From: Bacteroidota bacterium
GTDB taxonomy: Bacteria; Bacteroidota; Ignavibacteria; UBA10030; SZUA-254
Assembly: GCA_030019075.1 (NCBI GenBank)
Contig: JASEHD010000016.1
Span: forward strand, 1 to 35,439
Length of the DNA: 35,439 bases
Reading direction: 5' to 3'
Made by a program: the position numbers and the translations under genes. The notes under the pieces were generated by a model. That model searched no databases. It was not told the origin of the DNA and saw only the letters and a program-made list of their open reading frames with translations. Positions 3,382 to 35,439 of this stretch are shown here, piece by piece (position 1 is the stretch's first letter; each line of letters opens with the position of its first letter).

Positions 3382-6300
3382 TTATTTTATTATGAGCATC
3401 TTCTTAACTTGAACGAAATTTTTATTTTCTGATTGTGCATGCATTCTATAGAAATATAGACCCGACCCTATATTGCTTTTAGTCCCGAGCATGTTAGCAT
3501 TCACTTCAACTGAATATGTTCCAGCATCGTATAATTTGTGATTAATTATCGATGAAACCTCCTGGCCTAAAACATTATAGATCTGCAGCGAAACAAAAGC
3601 GTCGATTGGTAAATCGAAGTCGATTTTAGTTATTGGATTGAATGGGTTCGGATAATTCTGTTTGAGTGAAAATTCCGTTGGTATGTTTTTGATTTCACTC
3701 AATGTTAAAGTAATTCTTTTAATCGATGGATCGGTGATGATAATCGAGTTATTGGTTTTTGGAGATAGTTGTTTACCATTCGAGCTGTTTGTCATTACAA
3801 CTGTTTGCTCTGTGTTTTGTGTTATTTCCCAAGAGACTTTAATCGGATAAGAAGACGATTGAATCATTATTGTCAGTGGTTCCGATTTATCTTGTAATAA
3901 TTCGACCATGCGATTTGTTGAGAAACGTGCGTCGAACAATCCTTCAGGCGGCAGAGGAGGAAGTTCAAATCTGTCAATTGAGAATGACGATCTTGGCGAT
4001 TTGCCAAAATGTAATGATTGAGTATTCCCCTCGTTATCTATTAGTGAGATTGTGTTCAATTGTTTAAGATATTCATCTCGTTCAAATGAAGAAGCTTTTA
4101 CAGCAAATCCTCCATCGCTAAGAACAAGCTGCCCGGGTTGATTAACTTTTACCCAATATCCTTTAGCAGGACGCAGCGTATCAATTGGAGCATAAGAGCC
4201 GGAATATCCGAAATAATCACTGCGAACGATATTGCCTGGCACTTGAATTATTGATGCTGTAGAGATGGAAGAGCTAATAGAACCAATCATATTCCAACCT
4301 TCTTGAACATTGTTTGTGCTGACTGTTAAAGGTATTCCATCCAACGGAATATTATTAACTGCAGGAAATTTTAACCAATATCCCCTGCCATGTGTTAATG
4401 TGTTTGCTATGTAATAATTTTGATTGTATCCAAACGCAAAAGAGATTGCATTTGGAAAGAGAGTCGTTTTTTTATTGTCACCGATTAGGTCAACCGGAAT
4501 AGACATCATATTCCAACCAGCGTTGAAAGTGTAAAATGCGGAAACAGTATATGCTATCTGAAATGACGTGATAGCAGGATTGGTGATGACGTATGAATTT
4601 TGCATTTTCATATTTATAGAAAACTGAGCGCTCTGGGTAGCAGCATCGCGAAGAGTAAATGTTCCTAATGGTAAGTTCGCATTATTCCATCGTAGAGTGA
4701 ACGGATAGCCCCCGGGTCCTGGTTGGAGTGAACCTGTGAAAATAACTTCCGTATGAGTGAAGCTGATAATGTCGCGAATGTCTACCTGCGTCCCATTCGT
4801 AGGAGGTATCAGCCAGCGCACATCATATGTGCCTGCCGGTGGTTTTGGACTAAGTGTAATTTCTCCTAAACGTAGATCGATACCATCGGTAGCTCCAGGA
4901 ATAGTCCCATAGTAGAGTGTGTCTGTTATTGAACCATTGTCGCGTATAATGAGAGAATCGATAAAGTGGAAAGGATGTCTCCATGTGTAATCAGATCGTC
5001 CTAAAAACCAATTTGAAAATTTTGATACTGAATCAAGGTTAATGGCTACAACGTCACTATCGAGATAGTCGGTAACACCCATATTAACAATAACACCGTT
5101 TGAATCTCTAAAGAGACCTAAATCATAAATTGGTATCGTAGATTCGGAAGTATCATATCGTAACGACATAAATGCCCTGTAATTACTTCCACCGATCGGC
5201 GTAATTGAATAATAACGCTTAACAAATGCCGATTCTGGAAGTAATGGAGCAAGGGAGTTCGGATATACAGTCATGAGAATAGTGTCCGGGAGCGTGCCAG
5301 TTGGATAAAATTGTAAATAAGTTACAGGACTTTCGAATCGATATTGTATGGTTGCCCCAGGTCTGATAGTACGTTTGACAGTCCCTGCTAATATTATTCC
5401 ATTCCCTTGTATTCCATGACCGTCAGGATTCAGAATGCTCAATGTATCAACTGATCTTAAAGAAATGTTGGAAAATGTTCTAAGATTATTTTTTATTTCG
5501 ATGTTATCGATTGATTGTATTTTTGCACTATCGCCGATGAGAAGGTTGAAGAAGGATCCTCGTAATTGTCCTTTGTTCATAATGTTAACAGTGGATTGAC
5601 CGGGGATGAATTTTCCAGATGCACTTATTAAAAAATTTCCGCCAACAATAAGCTCTAAAGTTGATGCTGGTTCGAGTAAGAGAGTGCCTTCGATGCGGAT
5701 ATTTCCACTGACAACAAGTTGTGCAAGTCCACTTCCAAAAGTAAGTTTTGTGTTGGGTGCTATGTACAATGCACCAATATTTACTTGCTGGTTTAGGGTA
5801 CGATATGCTGGCTTATTAACAGTAAAAGGAATAATGACGCTATCCCCATTTTCCGGTACTCCGCTCGGGTGCCAATTTGCCGGAGAGCTCCAAAGTGTAT
5901 CAAATTGACCTGTCCAAATCCGGGTTGGTGAGGGCGATGCACTAGAAGTCAATATTGTTCCGCCGATCCCGGTTGCAAATAGAGATCCTCCTCCCGTCCC
6001 TGATTTGATGAGTTGAATCTCCCAGAGTGTATTCAGTGTTCCGCTCCGTTGAAAATTCCAGTTTATCCCCCCATCTGTTGTGTTCAAGATCTCACCGTCA
6101 TCTCCAGCCGCCCAACCAACATTCCTGGATAAGAATGTAGTACCATAAAAACTTGAAATAGAGCTAACCATCTGAGGTGTCCAGTTAGTTCCTCCATCAG
6201 TAGTGGAAACGATGGCTCCAAAATCACCCGTTGCATAAACTGTATTTTGATCAATAATATCGAGAGAGTAGAGCGTCTGATATGTGTTGCTTATCTGAGG

Positions 6301-7749
6301 AATCCACGTCTGTCCACCATTTGTGGTTTTCAGGATTTCACCCCCGTAACCGACTGTCCATCCAATAGAGGTATTAAAGAATTTAACTTTCATTAAAGGA
6401 TTATATGTGTTCGAAGTTTGAGCCACCCAAGTAAGTCCACCATTATTTGTGGCTAAGATAGTTCCAAAATCGCCTACTGCCCAACCTGTGGATGCGTTTA
6501 CAAAATAAATAGAATAAAGAGATAATTCCTCGGTGCGGCTATTTTGTCTTGACCATGAATAACCACCGTTTGTAGTTTTCATAACGACTGCACTGTCACC
6601 GACCACCCATGCGATGTTATTATCTAACATGAATACACCGTATAAAAATAAAGTTGGTGAAACCCCGCTTGGATATTGAGTCCAAGTATTTCCACCGTTC
6701 ATCGTGCGTATAATAGTTCCTTCTTCGCCCACCGCTAAGCCATTCGTTCCGGATGAAAAATGAATGCCATAAAGAATATTTTTAACTCCTGTCGAAATCG
6801 AAAACCAATTGGTTCCCCCATTTGTTGTTTTTATAATAGTTCCAAAATCACCGATTGCCCAGCCAACACTCGGCGAAGCGAAACGCACTGAATAAATATC
6901 GTTATATGTTCCGCTTGATTGCTCAACCCACGTATTACCCCCATCGGTGGTAGCAACTGTGGCACCCCAACTGCCCACAGCCCAACCCCTCGAAGGTGTA
7001 ATAAAATGCATGCTGTATAAACTGAAATCTGTACCGCTGGCTTGCGATTGCCATGAGTTCCCACCATCGGTCGATTTTATAAGAAGCCCGAATGATCCAA
7101 CAGCATATCCTACTGTTGGTGATATGAATTGGACGGTGTAGAGATTTTGATTTGTTCCAGTTGTTTTCAATTCCCACGTTGTACCGCCGTTTGTTGTTGC
7201 AAGAACTTTACCGTTTGTTCCAACAATCCATCCGAGGTTCGGACTATAGAAATAAACATTATAAAGAGTTGCATTTGTTATAGGTGTTGAGTAAGTCCAA
7301 TCGGTGCCACCATTTGTTGTTTTATAAATAGTCCCCTGAGCACCTATGATAAATCCGGTCGACGTGGAAATAAAATGAATACCAAAAAGATCCTTCGTCG
7401 TAGGACTGTTGTGAATGAGCCATGTCGTTCCCGCGTCAGTGGTCTTCAATATTCTTCCTCCTTCACCGATTGCCCAACCGATAGTGCTAGTCGTAAACTG
7501 TGTGGCGTATAGTGGCTCAGTAACACTTGCTGCGTTCTGGGTAACTCGCCAGGTCTGTCCGCCATTTGTAGATTTCATGATCGTTCCATAATCACCCACG
7601 CAGAAAACTGTATCCTGATTAATGGACCAGATACTATTTAAAATATTTCCTTGTGGCAGTGGATTAACCCATTGCCAAGAGGTTTGTTGGGTATACAATG
7701 CAGAAGCAGAAATACCACAAATTACTATGTATAAAAGTAGTCGTCGCAT
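3382..7749 (-). CDS. Secreted Ycf48-like repeat protein with T9SS type A sorting domain
   Basis: A 1455-residue exported protein of unknown role. An N-terminal signal peptide (about 1-20) is followed by thirteen repeats of the Ycf48/BNR type, each with a GWAVGxxGTIxxTTNGGxxW-like core (about residues 25-590), expected to form one or two beta-propellers. A beta-rich region (about 600-930) follows, then a cassette from about 932: a TDGIDLRLGE...PPAGTYDVRW module, two GWNM...GYW(L/V)K modules (about 1077-1215), a second ELPPLPPEGLFDARF module (about 1240-1350) and the type A sorting domain from NYPNPFNP (1365) to the basic end VKKMLIIK. T9SS cargo keep this domain until secretion across the outer membrane. 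The gene lies 20 bp after the M14 peptidase gene, in the same operon. Confidence 0.9.
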   Translation of the reverse strand: MRRLLLYIVICGISASALYTQQTSWQWVNPLPQGNILNSIWSINQDTVFCVGDYGTIMKSTNGGQTWRVTQNAASVTEPLYATQFTTSTIGWAIGEGGRILKTTDAGTTWLIHNSPTTKDLFGIHFISTSTGFIIGAQGTIYKTTNGGTDWTYSTPITNATLYNVYFYSPNLGWIVGTNGKVLATTNGGTTWELKTTGTNQNLYTVQFISPTVGYAVGSFGLLIKSTDGGNSWQSQASGTDFSLYSMHFITPSRGWAVGSWGATVATTDGGNTWVEQSSGTYNDIYSVRFASPSVGWAIGDFGTIIKTTNGGTNWFSISTGVKNILYGIHFSSGTNGLAVGEEGTIIRTMNGGNTWTQYPSGVSPTLFLYGVFMLDNNIAWVVGDSAVVMKTTNGGYSWSRQNSRTEELSLYSIYFVNASTGWAVGDFGTILATNNGGLTWVAQTSNTYNPLMKVKFFNTSIGWTVGYGGEILKTTNGGQTWIPQISNTYQTLYSLDIIDQNTVYATGDFGAIVSTTDGGTNWTPQMVSSISSFYGTTFLSRNVGWAAGDDGEILNTTDGGINWNFQRSGTLNTLWEIQLIKSGTGGGSLFATGIGGTILTSSASPSPTRIWTGQFDTLWSSPANWHPSGVPENGDSVIIPFTVNKPAYRTLNQQVNIGALYIAPNTKLTFGSGLAQLVVSGNIRIEGTLLLEPASTLELIVGGNFLISASGKFIPGQSTVNIMNKGQLRGSFFNLLIGDSAKIQSIDNIEIKNNLRTFSNISLRSVDTLSILNPDGHGIQGNGIILAGTVKRTIRPGATIQYRFESPVTYLQFYPTGTLPDTILMTVYPNSLAPLLPESAFVKRYYSITPIGGSNYRAFMSLRYDTSESTIPIYDLGLFRDSNGVIVNMGVTDYLDSDVVAINLDSVSKFSNWFLGRSDYTWRHPFHFIDSLIIRDNGSITDTLYYGTIPGATDGIDLRLGEITLSPKPPAGTYDVRWLIPPTNGTQVDIRDIISFTHTEVIFTGSLQPGPGGYPFTLRWNNANLPLGTFTLRDAATQSAQFSINMKMQNSYVITNPAITSFQIAYTVSAFYTFNAGWNMMSIPVDLIGDNKKTTLFPNAISFAFGYNQNYYIANTLTHGRGYWLKFPAVNNIPLDGIPLTVSTNNVQEGWNMIGSISSSISTASIIQVPGNIVRSDYFGYSGSYAPIDTLRPAKGYWVKVNQPGQLVLSDGGFAVKASSFERDEYLKQLNTISLIDNEGNTQSLHFGKSPRSSFSIDRFELPPLPPEGLFDARFSTNRMVELLQDKSEPLTIMIQSSSYPIKVSWEITQNTEQTVVMTNSSNGKQLSPKTNNSIIITDPSIKRITLTLSEIKNIPTEFSLKQNYPNPFNPITKIDFDLPIDAFVSLQIYNVLGQEVSSIINHKLYDAGTYSVEVNANMLGTKSNIGSGLYFYRMHAQSENKNFVQVKKMLIIK

Positions 7750-7769
7750 AATTATGTCCCTTGTAAAAA

Positions 7770-10700
7770 TTACCTGATGATTATCATTTTTCTTTGTAAT
7801 TGAACTGTTTGTTCATCTTCTATTGATTTTACCGTTAACCGATAGAAGAAAAGCCCCGATGGCAGTTTGCTTCCGTCAATATTTGTGGAGTATCTGCCTT
7901 CGTCATAATATCTATTGGTTAATATTGATGAAACTTCTTGACCGAGTGTGTTAAATATTTTTAGAGTAACAATAGATGGAGTTGGTAAATCGAAACTAAT
8001 TGTAGTAGCTGGATTAAATGGGTTTGGGTAATTCTGATATAGTGCAAAATCTCTCGGAACAGATTCTGAGGGAAGATTTCTCAAAATTAGAGATTTGATA
8101 TTTGGATCAGTAATTAACATTGAACCTTTCATTGTAAGGGATTGTACCCCAGCTTCTGCCTTATCATTCACAATTGCTAATTCGTATGACGTATTATCCG
8201 ACTTCAATCTATTCCATTCTACCGTAACTGGATAAATAGATGATTGAATTTGAATTTTTATCTCATTAGAAGCATCGCTTGAGTTAAAGATATGAACATT
8301 CCGTTGTGATTCAAAACGAACATCGAAGGCATCATGCAGCGGCAGAGGCGGTAATTCGTTCCCTTCCAGAGCAGAAGCTTCCAATTCTTGATATTTATCG
8401 AAGTAGAGTGTTGCTTTACGTCCGACCGCATTTGAAATTGTAACGGTACTGAAAGAATTCATTTCATGAATTGTTAAATCTTTGCGTGTGACTGAACCAA
8501 CTGCAGGGTAGGTTGAATAACTAAGCTGCCGGGGACCTTTCATCCAGAATCCCTCACCGGGTGTTAAAGTGGTTGGCTCAAGATATGTCCCTCGATACAC
8601 AAAAAGCTTGCACGGCGGTGGATTGCATTGCATTTGATTCACTGGTGTAGCATAACTTAAGCCAGCTATTAATGCCCAACCCGCTGGAATTTGTAATGTA
8701 CCTCGAACTATCGGTGTGCCAGTGAATGTAATCGTATCATCTGAAATAAATTTTAACCAATAAGATTGCAGGTACTCAAGTGCGTCTACGATAACATAAC
8801 TACCTTGGTAGGCGAAAGCTTCTGATTTAGCTTGCGGATATAAAAAGTTCCTTGCTCGATTTTCGGTTATTACTGGTACTGATATGATGTTCCAGCCACT
8901 ATCTACAATTTGTTGTAATGTATCCACAATGCTGTGAGTTATTTCGATAGATTGAATTGACGTATTGGTAATTACCAAGCTGGTATCTGTCCACATGTTG
9001 ATGTTTATTAGTGTTCCGTGAGTTAGTCCATCGCGCAGTTTCCAGCCACCATCAAGAAATCTTGCTGGATTCCATCTTAATGTTATAGGATATCCACCTG
9101 ATCCCGGTTGAAACTCGGCAGTGAATGTATTTGACTTGTGAGTTGAAGATAATGTCTGTTTCATGTCGGTGTTCACTCCGTCTGTGCTGTTAATAGACCA
9201 ACGCGCATCAAACGTTCCAGAAGATGGTTTAGGTGGTAATTCAGACTCACCTAAGAATTCATCAATTCCATCCGTTGCAGCAGAAGCTTCACCAAATATC
9301 AAAATATTTGATTCTCCACCATTATCACTAATAATAAATTCCGACTGTTGAGCAATATTGAGGTAGGCAAGTACGCGGATATCGTCAAGATACCAGCCAT
9401 CTCGATTATCAGCTCCGTCGCTCGAAAGACGAAAACGTAATAATAACTGATTACCAACGTAAGGTGTTAGGTCGATTTCCTCTTCTATCCAGTTTAAACC
9501 CGGAGTGTATCCATCATATCCCCAGGTACCAGCGGATTGAACACCGCGGGTGGAGCCAACGTGTGAAAGTTTACTTTTTAAAGATGTCCAATTTGTACCG
9601 CCATTCGTTGAAACTTCTACCCTGGCAAAATCATAAGATGGCTCGATAGCCCATTTCGTCCAATAGCGGAGAATGCAATAATTATATTCGGTTAAATTTA
9701 GAGTTGAAGCAAGCGTGAGAAGAGCGTTCACATTCGAAGCATGGTTTCCGGTTGGACTATCAGTGAAAGAATATGGAGGTGTATGTGCATTTGTTGTTGT
9801 ACTCCAGCCACCGGATGCAATCCAATTTCCAATCCCGGTGGAAGCACTATCTGCTAATAAAACAATCGATTTTCCAATAAAAATTGCAGAAGTATCAGAA
9901 TATTTATATCCGCCTTGGGCGGTAATTTCAAAATACAAATTTACACGAGAACCTATTAGACTATTCGCACCAACGGTACCGGAAAATGAGACGATGGAAT
10001 CAGTTCTCGCAAGTAAATTCTCAAGCGTAACTTTATCAGGTGAAAAAACAATATGAGGTGAAGATGAAGAGATCGCTATCTCAAGGTTTGATGCATCGCC
10101 AAGTCCTTTATTCCGCACGGTAGTATTTAATATGAATTGTTCGCCCGGTTCAAGATATCCATCACTATCTTCATCTATGATTTCGTTATGTTTAATTGTT
10201 GTGTATTGACCAGCAACATAAGAATAATAAATATTTGCATTCAAATTTTCTATGGCAAGTGGGAAAATTTGATTTGAGGGGGGCCAAAATGATGGGCCAA
10301 CCTCCGGTGTCATGGCAAATGTTTTATAAATATTTCCACCGTACATAAAATCATCTGAATTACCGCGTGTAGAATAGTTCACGGTTTGAAGATCTGTTCC
10401 TGTTGCATATCGATTGATACCAACCATGTCGAAAGCAAATTCACGATAGATAAGTGAATCGCTGCTCTCAGCAGATAGGTATCCCCATGGATAAATTAGG
10501 AGATTACCATAGGTATGATAATTGAAACATGTTTTTACATTATTATAATATAAAAACTGATATATGGTGGCAACCTCTGGCTCGGAAAATGGAGCTACCC
10601 CACGGTATGTTTCCCATGCTGGATTAGTACTCGAACCGCCGTTCGGTGAATCCCACATATAATAAGGTCCAAAATTACGATTCAGGTCAACGCCATAAAT

Positions 10701-11432
10701 ACCACCGCCGTTATTTCGTCGATTTTTCCTCCACATTCCACCGCCCGATGGATTTGTTGTTTGATTATAAACATAGCCGTCGGGATTTATAACTGGCATA
10801 AACCACATCTGTCGGTTATTAACTAAATAAGTTGCATCAGAGTTAGAACCATAATTCTCGAGGAGCCACCACATATAATAGATGACAGTCATCATACCTT
10901 GTGGTTCTCGTGCGTGTGTGAGCGCAGTGTATAAAGCTTCCGGTTCGTCTGTTTCATAATTATTCGGATTGTCCGATATCTTTGCAATCCAAATTGCTCG
11001 ACCTTGTACTGATGTTCCAATACTCTCTTTTGCCGTTATGATGTTTGGGTAAAGAAGTTTCATTGAATCAAGTTGTGATTTTACTTCTTCATAAGTATAG
11101 TACCCTCCCATGCTGCCGTATCCAAAGCCAAGTGCATCTACAGGAAATTTGGATAAGCTTTGTTGATTGATGACGCTGAGATCATCGTGGATGATAGTAT
11201 ATGAAATTCCTTGTGAAATTAATTGCTGAAGATCGTGTTGGTTTGCAACGAATTCCATCCAGCCGCCAACTTTTCCTGAAGACCCTTCATAATCAATTCC
11301 GGCACTCCAAATTTTGTTCAAAGCGGTCCTATCTGGCACAAAGATTTTTATCTGGGAATATTTTTCTTGTGATTCTGCGACGAGAGAAGATATGGCAATG
11401 ATGATTGCAATTAGGGTAGTAAAGACTTTCAT
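7770..11432 (-). CDS. Secreted zinc carboxypeptidase (M14) with T9SS type A sorting domain
   Basis: A 1220-residue exported metallopeptidase. Signal peptide at about 1-19; M14 catalytic domain at about 110-400. The zinc ligands are His173 and Glu176 (THAREPQG) and His306 (FNYHTYGN); GVDLNRNFG has the substrate-binding Asn/Arg (251-252), and Glu377 in MTPEVG is the expected catalytic base. All active-site residues are present, so it should be active. After it come a CARDB-like region (about 415-520), a jelly-roll domain of the kind found in immune-inhibitor-A/MAM proteins (about 530-690), then a cassette from about 697 homologous to that of the next gene, ending in NYPNPFNP (1134) and QRKMIIIR. 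The cassette is 524 residues in both proteins. First gene of the operon. Confidence 0.93.
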   Translation of the reverse strand: MKVFTTLIAIIIAISSLVAESQEKYSQIKIFVPDRTALNKIWSAGIDYEGSSGKVGGWMEFVANQHDLQQLISQGISYTIIHDDLSVINQQSLSKFPVDALGFGYGSMGGYYTYEEVKSQLDSMKLLYPNIITAKESIGTSVQGRAIWIAKISDNPNNYETDEPEALYTALTHAREPQGMMTVIYYMWWLLENYGSNSDATYLVNNRQMWFMPVINPDGYVYNQTTNPSGGGMWRKNRRNNGGGIYGVDLNRNFGPYYMWDSPNGGSSTNPAWETYRGVAPFSEPEVATIYQFLYYNNVKTCFNYHTYGNLLIYPWGYLSAESSDSLIYREFAFDMVGINRYATGTDLQTVNYSTRGNSDDFMYGGNIYKTFAMTPEVGPSFWPPSNQIFPLAIENLNANIYYSYVAGQYTTIKHNEIIDEDSDGYLEPGEQFILNTTVRNKGLGDASNLEIAISSSSPHIVFSPDKVTLENLLARTDSIVSFSGTVGANSLIGSRVNLYFEITAQGGYKYSDTSAIFIGKSIVLLADSASTGIGNWIASGGWSTTTNAHTPPYSFTDSPTGNHASNVNALLTLASTLNLTEYNYCILRYWTKWAIEPSYDFARVEVSTNGGTNWTSLKSKLSHVGSTRGVQSAGTWGYDGYTPGLNWIEEEIDLTPYVGNQLLLRFRLSSDGADNRDGWYLDDIRVLAYLNIAQQSEFIISDNGGESNILIFGEASAATDGIDEFLGESELPPKPSSGTFDARWSINSTDGVNTDMKQTLSSTHKSNTFTAEFQPGSGGYPITLRWNPARFLDGGWKLRDGLTHGTLININMWTDTSLVITNTSIQSIEITHSIVDTLQQIVDSGWNIISVPVITENRARNFLYPQAKSEAFAYQGSYVIVDALEYLQSYWLKFISDDTITFTGTPIVRGTLQIPAGWALIAGLSYATPVNQMQCNPPPCKLFVYRGTYLEPTTLTPGEGFWMKGPRQLSYSTYPAVGSVTRKDLTIHEMNSFSTVTISNAVGRKATLYFDKYQELEASALEGNELPPLPLHDAFDVRFESQRNVHIFNSSDASNEIKIQIQSSIYPVTVEWNRLKSDNTSYELAIVNDKAEAGVQSLTMKGSMLITDPNIKSLILRNLPSESVPRDFALYQNYPNPFNPATTISFDLPTPSIVTLKIFNTLGQEVSSILTNRYYDEGRYSTNIDGSKLPSGLFFYRLTVKSIEDEQTVQLQRKMIIIR

Positions 11433-11621: not shown

Positions 11622-14600
11622 TCACCGCAAAAGTAACATCTTGCGGACTTGTGTAAACGATTTACTCGGTTGGTTTATACTTGTTGCTTCAAGCCGATAA
11701 AAGTATACGCCACTCGCAACGGAACCACCGTAATTATTAAAAGAATTCCATCGTACTATCTTAACTCCGGGGTCCTGAATTTCATCTACAAGTTTAATTA
11801 CTTCCTGACCGAGAACGTTATAGATCGTTAATTTTACGCGTGATACTACTGGTAAAGAGTATTCAATTTTTGTTATTGGATTAAATGGATTTGGATAATT
11901 TTGGTGTAACGAGAAAGTTATCGGTAACTTATCCTCTAAAACGTCAACTATTATTGAATTAACAATAAGTAAATCTCCCGGCATATTTGGTTTTGTTGTA
12001 GTGATGCGGAATATTGTACCATTTTCTGGGAGTGGTTGGTTGTATGTTCCCGATGGAGGTGTGGCACCGATATCGCCATTCCAATTAACAAAAACCATTC
12101 GTGCCATAACTTCTGTTTCACGATTACCATCGTATGTTCCAGCGATCATCTCCGCCTCAGCCGCCAAGTAGCCAGATTGGCCTGGTGATGTATTTGCTGG
12201 GCGCTGCCAGTATATCCAATCGGTATATGGATCGTTATCACCACCAGAAACAGTATGATCATATGTTCCAGCGAATTTTGCATTTGGTACACCCATATTA
12301 AATGTTACGCTGCTATCATCATCTAATAACCAAGGAACCATTCTATAATCATCAGTAATGTCATCGGGGGTTCCGATACCGATGTTCCACAATTCAAAAG
12401 GAACGTGGAAGAAATTTGTCATTGAGTTATAAGAATCATAAGCCCAACTTCCGGTTGCTGTAAACCTAATTTCAAAATCGTACGGAATAATTTCAGTCCA
12501 TAATGGGCCCCCACGTGTTGTTCTATATAAAAACGATTGATAATCCGGACGGTAACCATTATCAGCAGTATGAATCAACCATCGAGCAGGTCCAACCTGT
12601 TGTGAATCGGTCGGTCGTTTGGATGGGAAATTTGTAAAATCTGCTGCAGCACCTTCACTTGGTATCAGAGAGCCGCCTGCATTTGCAACAACTTCAAAGT
12701 TTGAGAAATCTGGTTCAGGTGCATCCATCTTCCATAAGATTCCATCAATCACAGGATGTGGATATAATTCATCTGGGGAGATGGGAGAGTTTGTAAGTTT
12801 AACCACATCGGTTGTTGAATCTTTAATCTGAAATACAGTTAGATTTGTATTTATATCTTTATAAAAAGATATTGCATATGTGTGTCCGTTCAATAACATT
12901 GGATCAGCAATGATTGGGATTAAGTAATCGGCTTTGCCTTGAATTGGAATTACCTGTAAAGTATCTCCCCAAAGTGTACCTGGATTCCAATTTATAATTG
13001 GCACATCAGAATACATCATCTTAAAATGATTATCAAAATTTATTGTGTAAGCAAACTTAAATGAATCTCCCGATGCCGGTGCTGTTAAAATCAAATAGAA
13101 TGAAGTATCTGAAAATGTGCCGCCAGGGATAATCGTATTTGAGTTCAATGGTGTAGTATTTTGTACACACGTAATCGAAATTTCACTGATGTCATTAACC
13201 TGATCCGGGTTTTCGATGTCGAATGTTAAATGAACGCGTTCATAATTATTTACTTTTTTATCTTGCTGTCCGTTTTCCCAGATAACTCTCCAATTATCCA
13301 ACAGCGGTAAAGGTCTGATAGCAATCCGAGAGTATGCACCATTGAATGTATCAGTAGGTCCAGTGTATTGTACAATCAAATCTCCCTTGTATGGATACTT
13401 GCGATTTTCTCTTTGCTGTGTATTTCCCCAAATATTATCTCCAGCAATTTTATCTTGATGTAAACCATCGTCGTATAAGGCGATATAGAAGTCAGATTCG
13501 GTTCCATATTCAGGTGTGAAATGTAATTTGGCACTGGATGCCGATTGGAAATCTGTCAAGTCCACGACCGTGGTTATTTCAGTTGTTGTTGAACTTGTAG
13601 CTCTAGTATAGATTGAGCACTTGGGATAATGAAATCCTTGATCGTAGAGTCTTTGTGCAATTGTATCAGTTGCGCGAAGATTTTTAATTGCATCAAGCCG
13701 ATCTGTTCCTTTTCCACCTACGCAAGATAATATTACGACTTGTGTATCACCGACGGCTAAGTTGAATGGACCTGTGCAAAGCATCATTCGTTTATCATCC
13801 GGACGTGGATCAAGTTCAGAAGATGGAGCGGTAAGCGGATCAGCGGGATATGTAAAACGACTCGACTTAGGATCGCCGTTCTTTTCGAGTCCTCGCATTA
13901 AATTGTATAATTCTCTATCATTGTCGGGATCACCTTCAGCACCACGGACGTTAATGTATCTAACAGTTGAACTAAGCCCAAGGACTTTTTTCCCCGGAAC
14001 AATCCGCTGTACGAATCCGCCAATTGTTAGCTCAAGATATTTTGCAGTATCGGTTGGTTCTCCATCAACAACCGGACCTTGGGAAAAATCTGCCCCAAAT
14101 GCTGAACCACCTAAACTAACTGGATCAGTATTATCAGCGTTGTATGTGAATGCCATGCTTGTAAGTGTATCGGTAGCGATCAAATCGTTACTCGCTTTAT
14201 CAACATCAGGATCAAACCAACCTGAGATATAGACATCCGATAGATTTTTTGTTCCCTTATTGATAATCTTCCAATACATAAAGAATACATCGCTGTAACC
14301 AGTGATGTTAACTTGTATTGATGCTTGTTGAACTTCAAGCCCCAGTGGATCTTTTTGTGAATCATCAGGTAAGCGGTGAAGAGAGGTATCCATATCATTA
14401 TAAACACACCAACTCATCAAATCACCGATGACTAGTGGATTCCCGACATTATCTACTGGTGCACCATATTGTTTGGGCCAATTTAAATAATCATCGATAT
14501 CGTCGCCGTTACCGGGAGGTGTTCCATCGCTTCCATCTTTATATAACGCGAAAAGTTTATTATCAGCAGCCCCGGCATTTGTTCCTACAGCCCCTGGTTG

Positions 14601-14951
14601 ATATTCAGAATCGAAATCAATCACGCTTACCTTCGGTATACCATCAACCATTGCACCTATTTGTAAACCGGCAGCGAAAATTATATAGGTTCCCGTACCG
14701 CGGGGAAATTCACCGCCAGATCCACCTCCTGTAGGTAATCGACCTGCAATATCCTGAGCATACGGACCATAATTAGTCATTTCAAATGCCCAATTATTTC
14801 CCGTCATCGTGAATTGATTTTGAACAGTTGGTTTTAAGAAACTCTGAAGCGTGGATGATCTTTTAGCTATCCTTCCCCCATTGGCGAAATTGAAAGATTG
14901 AACGAGGATGATTGATGTTAGTATTAACAATTTAAAAAATCGTTGCTGCAT
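11622..14951 (-). CDS. Large secreted protein of unknown function with T9SS type A sorting domain
   Basis: A 1109-residue protein with a signal peptide (about 1-26) and a sorting domain beginning at NYPNPFNP (residue 1018) and ending VRKMLLLR, so it should be exported by T9SS and cell-surface attached or released. The middle is beta-rich and Asp/Gly-rich; I recognise no enzymatic motif. Notable stretches are NNWAFEMTNYGPYAQD near the start, a probable beta-sandwich with FFMYWKIINKGTKNLSDVYIS, and DIDDYLNW. The start is supported by AAAGGAG about 8 nt upstream. It lacks the GWN/YWLK and FDxRW modules of the two neighbouring T9SS proteins and has its own promoter and terminator. Confidence 0.85.
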   Translation of the reverse strand: MQQRFFKLLILTSIILVQSFNFANGGRIAKRSSTLQSFLKPTVQNQFTMTGNNWAFEMTNYGPYAQDIAGRLPTGGGSGGEFPRGTGTYIIFAAGLQIGAMVDGIPKVSVIDFDSEYQPGAVGTNAGAADNKLFALYKDGSDGTPPGNGDDIDDYLNWPKQYGAPVDNVGNPLVIGDLMSWCVYNDMDTSLHRLPDDSQKDPLGLEVQQASIQVNITGYSDVFFMYWKIINKGTKNLSDVYISGWFDPDVDKASNDLIATDTLTSMAFTYNADNTDPVSLGGSAFGADFSQGPVVDGEPTDTAKYLELTIGGFVQRIVPGKKVLGLSSTVRYINVRGAEGDPDNDRELYNLMRGLEKNGDPKSSRFTYPADPLTAPSSELDPRPDDKRMMLCTGPFNLAVGDTQVVILSCVGGKGTDRLDAIKNLRATDTIAQRLYDQGFHYPKCSIYTRATSSTTTEITTVVDLTDFQSASSAKLHFTPEYGTESDFYIALYDDGLHQDKIAGDNIWGNTQQRENRKYPYKGDLIVQYTGPTDTFNGAYSRIAIRPLPLLDNWRVIWENGQQDKKVNNYERVHLTFDIENPDQVNDISEISITCVQNTTPLNSNTIIPGGTFSDTSFYLILTAPASGDSFKFAYTINFDNHFKMMYSDVPIINWNPGTLWGDTLQVIPIQGKADYLIPIIADPMLLNGHTYAISFYKDINTNLTVFQIKDSTTDVVKLTNSPISPDELYPHPVIDGILWKMDAPEPDFSNFEVVANAGGSLIPSEGAAADFTNFPSKRPTDSQQVGPARWLIHTADNGYRPDYQSFLYRTTRGGPLWTEIIPYDFEIRFTATGSWAYDSYNSMTNFFHVPFELWNIGIGTPDDITDDYRMVPWLLDDDSSVTFNMGVPNAKFAGTYDHTVSGGDNDPYTDWIYWQRPANTSPGQSGYLAAEAEMIAGTYDGNRETEVMARMVFVNWNGDIGATPPSGTYNQPLPENGTIFRITTTKPNMPGDLLIVNSIIVDVLEDKLPITFSLHQNYPNPFNPITKIEYSLPVVSRVKLTIYNVLGQEVIKLVDEIQDPGVKIVRWNSFNNYGGSVASGVYFYRLEATSINQPSKSFTQVRKMLLLR

Positions 14952-31068: not shown

Positions 31069-31107
31069 GAGTTGTTTATGTTCCATTTTTTAAAAGGACA
31101 AGAAACA

Positions 31108-33021
31108 ATGAGGGTTTTTTTCAGACATAATTTATTTGTAATGCTTACACTTCTTCTATGTGCAGCGATTGCACAATTGCATCTCTACGCCCAAGACACC
31201 TCCTGCGGTATCGTTTGGTATCCGGCGATACAGCTATCGGACGATACGATAAGTTCTGTTTGTCCACAAATTGCTGTATCAGGAGATGACACAGTGCATG
31301 TGACGTGGAAGACTAACAGTGGTATTCAGACGATGAAGCTTCCCTATGTGAAGATTGTCTCAGGTACGGTGGTTGACACTAAAGATTTACTACAAGATAA
31401 TACTGAATTCCCAGTTTATGTGGCATATCCCGTAATCATTGCTCGCAATGACCGTGTATGGATTTTCTTTACACGAACATCCGATAGGCCGCTTTGGATG
31501 ATTTCAAGTAATGACGGCGGTAGCACGTGGAGTTCCGTTTCAGCAATAGCTCCTGATCCAACTGGGAGAGTTTATTCACCAAGTGAAAACGATCAATTAA
31601 TTGCACTCCTTTATCCTCCTCACAGTGCTCAACCATTAAAAATTCTTCGTTCGACAAATCTAGGTTTAACGTGGACTCGCACCGATGAAGATCTCGATAA
31701 TTATACCAAGATTACTTTGACACAGAATTCGCTTCACCTTGTCCAGCACAAATGGCTTGACCCATCGGTAGAAGTTGAATATCGTCAATCCACTGATTTA
31801 GGAACAAGCTGGAAGAGTGAGAAAATTATTTCTGAAGTAGATGGATGGTATTCTGATCAGCCGTCTATAGCTGCTGATAGGAATAAAATAGGTGATCAAC
31901 TTTTAGTTGCCTGGAGAGAAGAGAAGTATGGGTGGTATGGCCTTGCGGGTGGCAGCATAATAAGTCGTACGACAATACCAGGCAAAATGGAATGGCTTCC
32001 TGAGGTTTGTTTAACAGATGAACCCGCTGGCAGCAGTCCAGAAGTAGCGTTAAAGGGAGGTAAACGAGCTGTGGTATATGGGTATGAGGGATTGCCAGTT
32101 GGTTTTCATGTGCTCGTACGTTCAACTAATAATTCTTTGACTAATTTTTGTCCTGCAGTAGATATGAGACCTGATTCACATAATGGAGGTCAACGAGTTG
32201 CTGTTTCATCAGATGCAGTTCATGTTGTTTGGTCAGGGAAGGTTTATACAAATCATACATGGCGTATATTTTACCGTAGAGGAGAATTTATTAAAGCAAA
32301 TGCTATTTTTTCAACCTCTATTGATTCAATGGCACTGGGTACAACCGAGATTGGAAGAACAATTTCAGATACCGTCAGTGTAATGAATACAGGCAGTGAT
32401 ACAATGATAGTAGGGACAGCAATAAGCGATAACGAGAATTTCTCTGTAACTCCACAAGATACAATCGTACTCCCTTTTTCAGAAATAGAATTTACGGTGA
32501 ATTTTATTCCAAAGAGCTACGGTACACATACAGGAAAAATCATATTTTATCACAACAGTAAAACCTCCCCTGATTGTTTTGATGTAACGGGAACTGCCGA
32601 ATGGCGGAAAGAAACTATCAGCTACCAGCATGGAGAATGGAATATGGTATCAGTACCAGTGAAGCCCGGTCCAACTCAATCGTTACCATCAATGTTTAGT
32701 TATGAAGGCAGTTATATTCCTCGAGATGCAATGGAATTTGGTAAAGGATATTGGTCAAAGCCCGCCGCCCAAGAGATAACATACCAGGGTGCAGATGTAT
32801 GGAGCGATACATTTATAGTAAGAGCTGGCTGGAATATGATTGGCTCATTGACGGGTGAATTATTACGAGACAATATCACGACAATTCCGGATAGTTTGAT
32901 ATTATCGAAATTTTATTGGTACGACGGCTCACAGTATGTGGATTCGGATACGATAAAACCGGGAAGAAGTTACTGGATTAAGGTAAAACAAGACGGGAAA
33001 ATTATTCTGATGGCAAAATGA
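31108..33021 (+). CDS. Secreted BNR-repeat protein without a T9SS sorting domain
   Basis: A 637-residue protein from the ATG at 31108, chosen because AAAAGGA lies 9 nt upstream and a normal signal peptide follows (about 1-28, FVMLTLLLCAAIA core). Earlier TTG (31072) and ATG (31078) starts would add a 10-12 residue pre-extension. Asp-box motifs SSNDGGSTW (133-141), STNLGLTW (182-189) and STDLGTSW (228-235) indicate a sialidase-like beta-propeller. Next comes an Ig-like ASH/choice-of-anchor-D type domain (about 410-510), then a GWNMVSVPV...GYWSK / GWNMIGS...SYWIKVKQ module as in the two tandem T9SS proteins. It stops at KIILMAK with no NYPNPFNP domain. No catalytic sialidase residues are recognised; function unknown. 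Confidence 0.85.
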   Translation: MRVFFRHNLFVMLTLLLCAAIAQLHLYAQDTSCGIVWYPAIQLSDDTISSVCPQIAVSGDDTVHVTWKTNSGIQTMKLPYVKIVSGTVVDTKDLLQDNTEFPVYVAYPVIIARNDRVWIFFTRTSDRPLWMISSNDGGSTWSSVSAIAPDPTGRVYSPSENDQLIALLYPPHSAQPLKILRSTNLGLTWTRTDEDLDNYTKITLTQNSLHLVQHKWLDPSVEVEYRQSTDLGTSWKSEKIISEVDGWYSDQPSIAADRNKIGDQLLVAWREEKYGWYGLAGGSIISRTTIPGKMEWLPEVCLTDEPAGSSPEVALKGGKRAVVYGYEGLPVGFHVLVRSTNNSLTNFCPAVDMRPDSHNGGQRVAVSSDAVHVVWSGKVYTNHTWRIFYRRGEFIKANAIFSTSIDSMALGTTEIGRTISDTVSVMNTGSDTMIVGTAISDNENFSVTPQDTIVLPFSEIEFTVNFIPKSYGTHTGKIIFYHNSKTSPDCFDVTGTAEWRKETISYQHGEWNMVSVPVKPGPTQSLPSMFSYEGSYIPRDAMEFGKGYWSKPAAQEITYQGADVWSDTFIVRAGWNMIGSLTGELLRDNITTIPDSLILSKFYWYDGSQYVDSDTIKPGRSYWIKVKQDGKIILMAK

Positions 33022-33147
33022 GGCTGTTGAGCGAAGCGAAATCCCGCAGAACGAAGTGAAGCGGGAGGTGAAAGTGAAGGAGGATGGGAAATTGGTGATG
33101 AGAGCGAAGTGATATTCACAGCAGATTAAGCGGATTAAGGGATTGAT

Positions 33148-33168
33148 GATTTAGGATATATGATTTTG
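33148..33168. repeat. Heptamer tandem repeat (3 units)
   Basis: GATTTAG, GATATAT and GATTTTG follow each other with a 7-bp period. Confidence 0.5.
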
Positions 33169-33385
33169 AACAAACGAACAACAACGAACAAAAAAGAAAG
33201 GAGAGACATCAAACTTGAGTAGATATTCATCGTGCAGCACCGACCCCGCCATTCGGCGGGCAAGCCTGCCAGAGTTCTGTTGTGTTCTGCAGAACAGGTT
33301 GGTACCCCCGAAACGAGTTCGGGGTGACGTTGTCAAAAAGCCAGAGGCAATGGAGTTATTCTAAGTTTCCCCATTGCCCCTCAGC

Positions 33386-33427
33386 GGTGCATGGGGGTAG
33401 TGCAGAACAACTGCACCCCTATGCACC
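33386..33427 (+). repeat. Long imperfect hairpin before the last gene
   Basis: GGTGCATGGGGGTAGTGCAG (33386-33405) pairs with CTGCACCCCTATGCACC (33411-33427) around AACAA; one mismatch and a few unpaired bases interrupt the stem. It ends 23 bp before the ribosome binding site of the downstream gene. No T-tract follows, so it is not a normal terminator. Confidence 0.65.
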
Positions 33428-33464
33428 TGAAATATACAAAAATCTTTGATAAGGAGTAATTTTT

Positions 33465-35439
33465 ATGATAAACTTTATAAACATATTAAACCGGGTTATT
33501 GCAACAAGTGTTATAATATTAATTATCTCAACAATAGCAATATCTCAAACGTGGACATCATTACAGGGTCCACCCAAAGCACGCGATGTAAAAGACATCG
33601 CAGTAACTAATGATGGACAGACACTGTATGCGTGCGACAAGTCTGTTCTTTTTAAATCAACTAACGGCGGCACATTGTGGACTGCTACACAAGTAGAACT
33701 TGCTTCACCGCTTGTTGTTGTGTGCAAGCCGAACGACGCAAACAATGTTGTCGTTGGCATACAGAATTACATTAAGCTTAACACTAACGGTGGTTCCATC
33801 ACTGATTGGCAAGATGCTCTCACCAACGCCGGCACTCCCCTACGTCTTGCTGTGTCGCCGATAACCAATGCGAGTGATACAATGTATTTAGGTAGAAAAT
33901 ATTCGGCAGGTAGTTATTCTGTATATTTTAGCAGTAATGGTGGTGCTGATTGGTTTAATCGTTTCCCAAGTAGTTATGTTACCGATATTTACGACATCGC
34001 ACCATATCCAGTATTGAATACCAATTATAAGCACGTTTGGGTATGTGGCAGCGATACTGGTAATTATGCTGAAGGTACATCATTACCTAACAAACGTGGA
34101 GTGTTTTTCTCAAGGAACGCTGGAGAAAACTGGACATCAAAAGGAATGGATAGTTACAATCTGCGGGCTATTGCAATAAAGGATGCATCGCCACCAAATA
34201 TCTTTGTTGGAACAGCAGGAACACCAGCGAAATTCTTTGTGTCTATCGATACGGGCTTAACGTGGATAGAACGTACAAGCTTTAGAACTTTTAATGCAAC
34301 GGTAATCCGTGCAATAAGAGTCAGGAATAATAGTGACCTTTGGTTAGCATCGGATAAAGGACTATATCGTTCATTTGATAATGGCACCACATGGGCAAAC
34401 TTACCTATGCCGAATAATGATAACAATATATTATCATTGGTAATTGCGAAAAATGGTCAGGATTTGATCTACACAACTACTCAGAATTCAATTTACAAAA
34501 CAACAAATGCAGGAACATCGTGGAGTAGAGTAGACAGTGGTCTTGGTCGTATGCCGGTATCATCTGTTGCTGTGAGTAGTAATAACTATTGGACAGTATC
34601 GGATAAATATGATTCTCTCGGCAGGTTCGATGGCTCGAAATGGTCAATAGTTGAGCTTCATAATTTCCGTGGTAACAAAATCATACAACACCCAGATCAA
34701 ACAACATATATATATGCTACGGGTTATTCTGGCTCAGGTGTAAACCAGCGCGGCTTGTTTTATCGTAGTGTTGATAGCGGAAAGAATTACACTTCCCTAT
34801 ACACAACATCGCCATGGTCAGGTAATATATTTAATGGTATTACATTCGAACCAAACAACACTTCCTTCATTTATCTTTATGGCTATGATGTTACCGGGGC
34901 TAGCAATCCAAATTTCTATAAAATCCCTTTATATGGTGCTGGCACAAAAGAGCCATTTTCTGTTGGTGGTTCGTCTCCTCTAAACACTGTCAATGATGTT
35001 ATCGCAGTCGCTGGAACACAAATCGTTTATTATGGTTTGGATAATATTGGTGTTTACAGATCATTGTCTGGACCATCGAATGGGAACTCAGTATCTCACC
35101 AAATGACAGTACGAAGTCCTACTCTAAATGCCTCTGTCTCTACGACTACATTGTATGTAGTGGGACCATCAGGGCTCTGGCGGTGGCATGAAAATACTAT
35201 TTGGTATCCGAAACGAAACGATAATCTAAAAAAGGTAATTATGCGTCCTGGGTATACAAATTCGAAAAACCATATTGCAGTATTAGCGAATGATGGAAAC
35301 ACTATATGGTATACAGGTAACGCTGAAGCAGTGTCGCCGACATGGGTAGACGGTACGGGTGGTATTCCTAAGCTTATCTACGATATCAGTAACGTGCCAG
35401 GGGACACGACAATGGTAATAGCTGCAACAGATTGTGGGG
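33465..35439 (+). CDS. Secreted beta-propeller/BNR-repeat protein, 3' end outside window
   Basis: An open frame of 658 codons from ATG 33465 to the window edge, with AAGGAG 8 nt upstream. A signal peptide (about 1-29, with VIILIISTIAISQ) is followed by repeated Asp-box-like blocks: STNGGTLW, SSNGGADW, SRNAGENW, SIDTGLTW, SFDNGTTW, TTNAGTSW and SVDSGKNY, each after a Y/L-rich strand. This is typical of sortilin/Ycf48-like propellers found in surface and secreted proteins. The C-terminus, where a sorting domain would be, is not in the window. No catalytic motif is seen. Confidence 0.85.
   Translation, partial: MINFINILNRVIATSVIILIISTIAISQTWTSLQGPPKARDVKDIAVTNDGQTLYACDKSVLFKSTNGGTLWTATQVELASPLVVVCKPNDANNVVVGIQNYIKLNTNGGSITDWQDALTNAGTPLRLAVSPITNASDTMYLGRKYSAGSYSVYFSSNGGADWFNRFPSSYVTDIYDIAPYPVLNTNYKHVWVCGSDTGNYAEGTSLPNKRGVFFSRNAGENWTSKGMDSYNLRAIAIKDASPPNIFVGTAGTPAKFFVSIDTGLTWIERTSFRTFNATVIRAIRVRNNSDLWLASDKGLYRSFDNGTTWANLPMPNNDNNILSLVIAKNGQDLIYTTTQNSIYKTTNAGTSWSRVDSGLGRMPVSSVAVSSNNYWTVSDKYDSLGRFDGSKWSIVELHNFRGNKIIQHPDQTTYIYATGYSGSGVNQRGLFYRSVDSGKNYTSLYTTSPWSGNIFNGITFEPNNTSFIYLYGYDVTGASNPNFYKIPLYGAGTKEPFSVGGSSPLNTVNDVIAVAGTQIVYYGLDNIGVYRSLSGPSNGNSVSHQMTVRSPTLNASVSTTTLYVVGPSGLWRWHENTIWYPKRNDNLKKVIMRPGYTNSKNHIAVLANDGNTIWYTGNAEAVSPTWVDGTGGIPKLIYDISNVPGDTTMVIAATDCG

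Follow-up and report, generated by a model that had tools for sequence, protein, structure and literature searches.

The domain that precedes the C-terminal sorting domain (CTD) of gingipains has an Ig-superfamily fold. In studied T9SS systems, the cleavage site of the sortase PorU lies in the flexible linker that joins the folded CTD to the domain in front of it (PMC11969387). In RgpB, a point mutation that breaks the contact of the CTD with the preceding domain stops secretion (PMC11285876), and in Flavobacterium johnsoniae a HaloTag placed immediately upstream of a CTD is still exported (PMC12618676). The domain described here occupies the same place as the gingipain domain of RgpB (PMC11285876), i. 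e. it is a folded beta domain between the functional part and the CTD, but it has neither a PDB sequence match nor a structural match of useful significance to it. With the T9SS type A sorting domain itself (PF18962 / TIGR04183, an Ig-like CTD) it shares an extracellular, C-terminal position and a beta structure, and the two are usually immediate neighbours; however, the CTD is the sorting signal and was scored separately, whereas the present domain precedes it. Similar in kind are also secreted accessory modules with a beta-sandwich fold, among them the CBMs; they are all-beta, lie on the C-terminal side of secreted hydrolases and are shuffled among unrelated proteins. In contrast to CBMs, the present domain has no CBM match in Pfam or NCBIfam and its partners have no common substrate.

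The window, i. e. the whole stretch of 35,439 nucleotides that was analysed, contains two adjacent genes with this domain, both on the reverse strand. Gene 1 (3382-7749, -) is an intact ORF of 1455 aa for a Ycf48/BNR-like protein and gene 2 (7770-11432, -) an intact ORF of 1220 aa for an M14 carboxypeptidase. Both proteins start like signal peptides; by eye, their N-termini, MRRLLLYIVICGISASALYTQ and MKVFTTLIAIIIAISSLVAES, are leader-like. This start is followed in gene 1 by seven stretches of Ycf48/PSII_BNR repeats and in gene 2 by Peptidase_M14 and an InhA-like MAM domain, and in both genes by a cassette and the sorting tail. The type A tails were located by family search at 3391..3666 (-) in protein 1 (NYPNPFNP...) and at 7776..8039 (-) in protein 2. 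The latter scores 31.5 bits with PF18962 and is thus above the cut-off of 27; the former reaches 22 bits alone and 29.5 bits with its neighbours in frame. By their C-terminal sorting domains, both host proteins are T9SS type A cargo. A third adjacent T9SS cargo protein of 1109 aa (11622-14951, -) does not carry the domain and hence is a natural control, which indicates that the sorting tail does not require the domain.

The cassette consists of a long copy of the domain, a GWN/GYWxK module and a short copy, after which the type A tail follows. The distance from long to short copy is ~300 aa and strikingly constant (about 292-311 aa in most cassettes). In the Ycf48/BNR-like protein, the long-type copy lies at 4537..4965 (-; ATDGIDLRLGEITLSPKPPAGTYDVRW ... 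YPFTLRW ... VITNPAI; E 4.3e-54) and the short-type copy at 3688..4062 (-; ELPPLPPEGLFDARF ... YPIKVSW ... IITDPSI; E 1.1e-13). In the carboxypeptidase, the long-type copy lies at 8922..9350 (-; ATDGIDEFLGESELPPKPSSGTFDARW ... YPITLRW ... VITNTSI; E 5.1e-55) and the short-type copy at 8064..8456 (-; ELPPLPLHDAFDVRF ... YPVTVEW ... LITDPNI; E 9.8e-10). Both short-type copies directly precede the sorting tail. The E values are from a search of the whole genome with a profile built from long (mid-cassette) copies only. Between the copies, the module reads GWN...GYWLK / GWN...GYWVK in protein 1 (approximately 4101..4527, -) and GWN...SYWLK / GWA...GFWMK in protein 2 (approximately 8460..8915, -). 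It forms an internal two-fold repeat and has no Pfam match in either protein. Modules of the GWN/GYW type occur in other bacterial and archaeal surface proteins, ahead of C-terminal anchors.

A preliminary description of this DNA had proposed that the same domain occurs four times in the two genes. The profile of long copies bears this out, as it recovers all four (E 5e-55 to 1e-9). For the two copies at the C-terminal end, the scores are 54.0 and 40.3 bits, whereas the maxima among 2000 shuffles of each were 7.8 and 8.2, and a profile-profile comparison of long with short copies gives a probability of 98.6 across 114 columns. The four copies are thus confirmed, on sequence grounds, as real and homologous, well above chance. 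The strand described as YPI-x-(V/L)-x-W and the (I)ITDPSI-like strand at the end are found in each copy in the forms given above. Two details need correction. The motif given as ATDGID-x-LGE is present mid-cassette but with two residues in the gap (ATDGID-x2-LGE), and the copies do not lie twice on each side of the GWN/YWK pair; instead each gene has one copy per side. Two findings had been named as counterevidence, namely that the domain matches one already characterised or that its copies fail to align; neither was made at the level of sequence.

For the anatomy of the domain, 148 distinct copies from the retrieved loci were sorted into a long and a short type. Long copies are typically ~135 aa (range about 127-174 aa) and short copies ~110-120 aa (range about 99-126 aa); exceptions in the short set are two second copies of 134-139 aa, which are long-like. 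Both types keep the core L-P-P-x-P-P-x-G-x-F-D-x-R-F and, further on, YP(4)W. In this core, conservation amounts to 84% for P37, 91% for F45, 86% for D46 and 93% for R48 in long copies, and to 98% for P37, 95% for D46 and 95% for R48 in short copies. The elements A-T-x-G-x-D and G-E (D28 97%, E33 93%) and Q79 (83%) are restricted to the long type, as are W91 at 100% and M117 at 95%. Hence the core that had been assigned to all copies is common to them in its LPPxPPxGxFDxRF and YP(4)W parts, whereas the acidic ATDGID..LGE is absent from the C-terminal copies. A tree of the cassette copies, based on a short alignment in which many forks are not resolved, separates long from short with just three label changes; the two types are thus two old lineages.

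Single and long copies, cassettes outside the tail and nine diverged and short members matched no Pfam family above the gathering score and no NCBIfam family above the curated cut-off; the scans gave just sorting-tail or chance-level matches. Profile searches of PDB sequences returned chance matches alone, the domain was not found in the phage and plasmid collections, and the open literature yielded no description of it and no experiment on any member. For the long copy of the carboxypeptidase (8922-9350) with 35 relatives, AlphaFold2, run on monomers as for all models, predicts an all-beta domain of about ten strands in which a long helix is absent (pLDDT 96.7, pTM 0.90). Foldseek with this single-domain model found 0 matches at E <= 0.001 among 350,542 PDB chains (best E 1.1; probabilities <= 0.14 within the top 50), and no significant match among these chains places the domain in the Ig-like, FN3 or CBM folds. 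The best structural match overall, the viral predicted protein I1ZBD4 from BFVD (TM 0.55 on the query, Foldseek probability 0.89), has an E of 0.14 and 10% identity and may be due to chance. The earlier statement that no named family covers the domain thus holds. Judging from the model, the domain is possibly a new fold, or possibly a known fold with shifted strands; as the model is confident and has no convincing solved relative, the domain is a good candidate for crystallography. It represents a family absent from the searched libraries but of a familiar kind, namely an accessory domain of beta structure that T9SS cargo carries outside the cell. A fold prediction for the whole cassette reached a pLDDT of 83.9. 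Its Foldseek matches (S-layer protein, RbmA, GbpA and GH2 Ig domains) were rejected as homologs, since they are unspecific matches of beta-sandwich arrays with very low TM-scores.

By its position, the domain is tied to the T9SS sorting tail. Among the 94 last copies whose protein C-terminus is covered by sequence, 66 end at most 30 aa from a T9SS tail, while 9.3 are expected under uniform placement. The median gap from last copy to tail is 12.5 aa, and 88 of the 92 terminal copies carry a tail; a few copies sit hundreds of residues ahead of it. The preliminary description did not mention this tie. The source genome encodes a full-length PorU sortase (NF033707, 987 bits; cut-off 420) and at least 150 T9SS tails. 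It contains about 31 copies of the domain according to the whole-genome profile search, in about 25 ORFs. The domain therefore marks a minority of the T9SS cargo and does not reflect a general need.

In related bacteria, dozens of surface proteins that are unrelated to each other carry the domain just ahead of their export tag. Their N-terminal parts are very diverse and include peptidases, propellers, lectin-like domains and Ig repeats. Family searches identified M14 with MAM, Ycf48/BNR, S8, Kelch, SBBP, LamG, CBM20 and HYDIN-type Ig as partners; an M28-like peptidase (locus L002) was recognised by eye. Small proteins of ~280-310 aa consist of a leader, one copy and a T9SS tail, which indicates that the domain can stand alone. 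Three of them are encoded beside larger domain carriers (L019:6490-7332, L031:4568-5488 and L032:4782-5708).

In the family of the source genome, each of the 15 sampled genomes, the source genome included, has 14-44 copies. One further family of the order, f51, reaches 15-23 copies in four of its five genomes; elsewhere in the order the number is 0-2. In the phylum sample, 64 of 296 genomes carry the domain; within the KSB1 phylum, matches were obtained for 14 of 82 genomes. A scan of genome contigs yielded 24 named relatives, which are from Ignavibacteria, Melioribacteraceae, a 'Chlorobiaceae' MAG, Bacteroidetes MAGs and KSB1. The domain is one of the commoner nameless components of the secretome throughout an uncultured Ignavibacteria-like lineage, and it extends to other families of the phylum and to KSB1. 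Naming it would provide a C-terminal annotation for many T9SS proteins that are now unlabelled there.

In families f6, f7, f9 and f10 of the class, at least 15 genomes have about 2-4 copies each, mostly in one cluster of T9SS surface proteins of ~2400 aa, ~1050 aa and/or ~280 aa. The gene content was determined by family search for the cluster L066:172-16514. It encodes a protein of 2414 aa with Chlamydia-PMP-type repeats, a NIDO-type protein of 920 aa, a cohesin-like protein of 425 aa, a protein of 1044 aa with the full cassette and one of 281 aa with a single copy. The NIDO-type and cohesin-like proteins stand between the other three, and the cluster lies directly upstream of lipA (lipoyl synthase). 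Domain-bearing members of this cluster recur close together in at least 15 genomes of the class, including L065.

Taken as a family, the domain is probably a general-purpose piece that mounts proteins for display on the cell surface. Specifically, we propose, with about even confidence, that it is an unnamed, independently folding all-beta family of T9SS cargo that serves as a membrane-proximal base and mounts or spaces the cargo after removal of the tail. The cargo would cross the outer membrane by means of its T9SS tail, and PorU would cut the short linker that separates the domain from the tail and attach the freshly exposed C-terminus to a glycolipid of the surface. Left as the membrane-proximal base, the domain would keep the catalytic or binding part at a distance from the surface. 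The cassette of long copy, GWN module and short copy would be a longer mounting piece, shuffled as a unit among unrelated proteins. This mechanism is moderately supported; cleavage by PorU and anchoring to the glycolipid are transferred from Porphyromonas and Prevotella and would apply here by analogy. The position of the domain fits what is known from the studied systems, both the cutting of the linker by PorU and the contact of the RgpB CTD with the preceding domain. Also in its favour are the PorU sortase and the many tails of the genome, the unrelated partners, the constant spacing within cassettes, the small stand-alone proteins and the confident model. Once named, the domain would allow a simple test of what separates cargo from sorting tail on the surface. 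Against this reading speak the use of the domain on a minority of the cargo and the few copies far ahead of the tail. Moreover, LPPxPPxGxFDxRF and, in the long type, D28 and E33 are so strongly conserved that the domain could have a specific ligand or partner and not be a passive spacer.

Alternatively, copies on different cargo might associate with one another, or with a partner that they share, and thereby build an outer layer or matrix, which we consider possible but rather improbable. In favour of this, one family has undergone a lineage-specific expansion to 14-44 copies per genome, the 2-4 copies of at least 15 class genomes lie mostly in one conserved cluster of large proteins, and several stand-alone copies are encoded beside cassette proteins. 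However, duplication can also account for shared domains within a cluster. Unlikely to a similar degree is a CBM-like or calcium-dependent function, in which sugar or metal would be bound by the acidic and proline-rich region and the cargo thus directed to a substrate or to the cell's own polysaccharide. An all-beta domain on secreted hydrolases, the nearly invariant D28, E33 and W91 of the long copies and the CBM20 or LamG domains on some partners speak for it. Yet peptidases, propellers and Ig arrays share no substrate, the short type retains the fold core without the acidic loop, and in the comparison with PDB no CBM family gave a structural match of useful significance. Conservation of metal ligands was likewise not found across all members, as the acidic loop is confined to long copies; this weakens calcium binding as the common function, and for the shared core it weakens the idea of calcium or sugar binding raised in the preliminary description.

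It seems very doubtful that the domain is a new beta fold that acts as a self-associating base, in which short and long copies on dozens of cargo proteins join by their LPPxPPxGxFDxRF face into a surface layer, with the cluster of giant proteins as the ancestral scaffold. Equally improbable is an extended secretion or sorting signal, by which the domain would aid recognition, folding or passage of the cargo. It does abut the tail, and in RgpB the contact of the CTD with the preceding domain matters (PMC11285876), but most T9SS tails of the genome, like that of the neighbouring cargo at 11622-14951, come without it, and the exported HaloTag-CTD fusion (PMC12618676) also argues against this; a required signal is therefore unlikely. 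As an essential secretion signal the domain was rejected, since most T9SS cargo lacks it.

The carboxypeptidase gene and a cassette gene for ~1450-1520 aa are also adjacent in the relatives L012/G384, L014/G394 and G386, as judged from ORF length and neighbourhood, with the M14 domain confirmed in L012. ASH/HYDIN Ig or BNR/Sortilin-type repeats also occur in two further large proteins, which the window encodes at 31072-35438 (+); the second of these extends beyond the window end.
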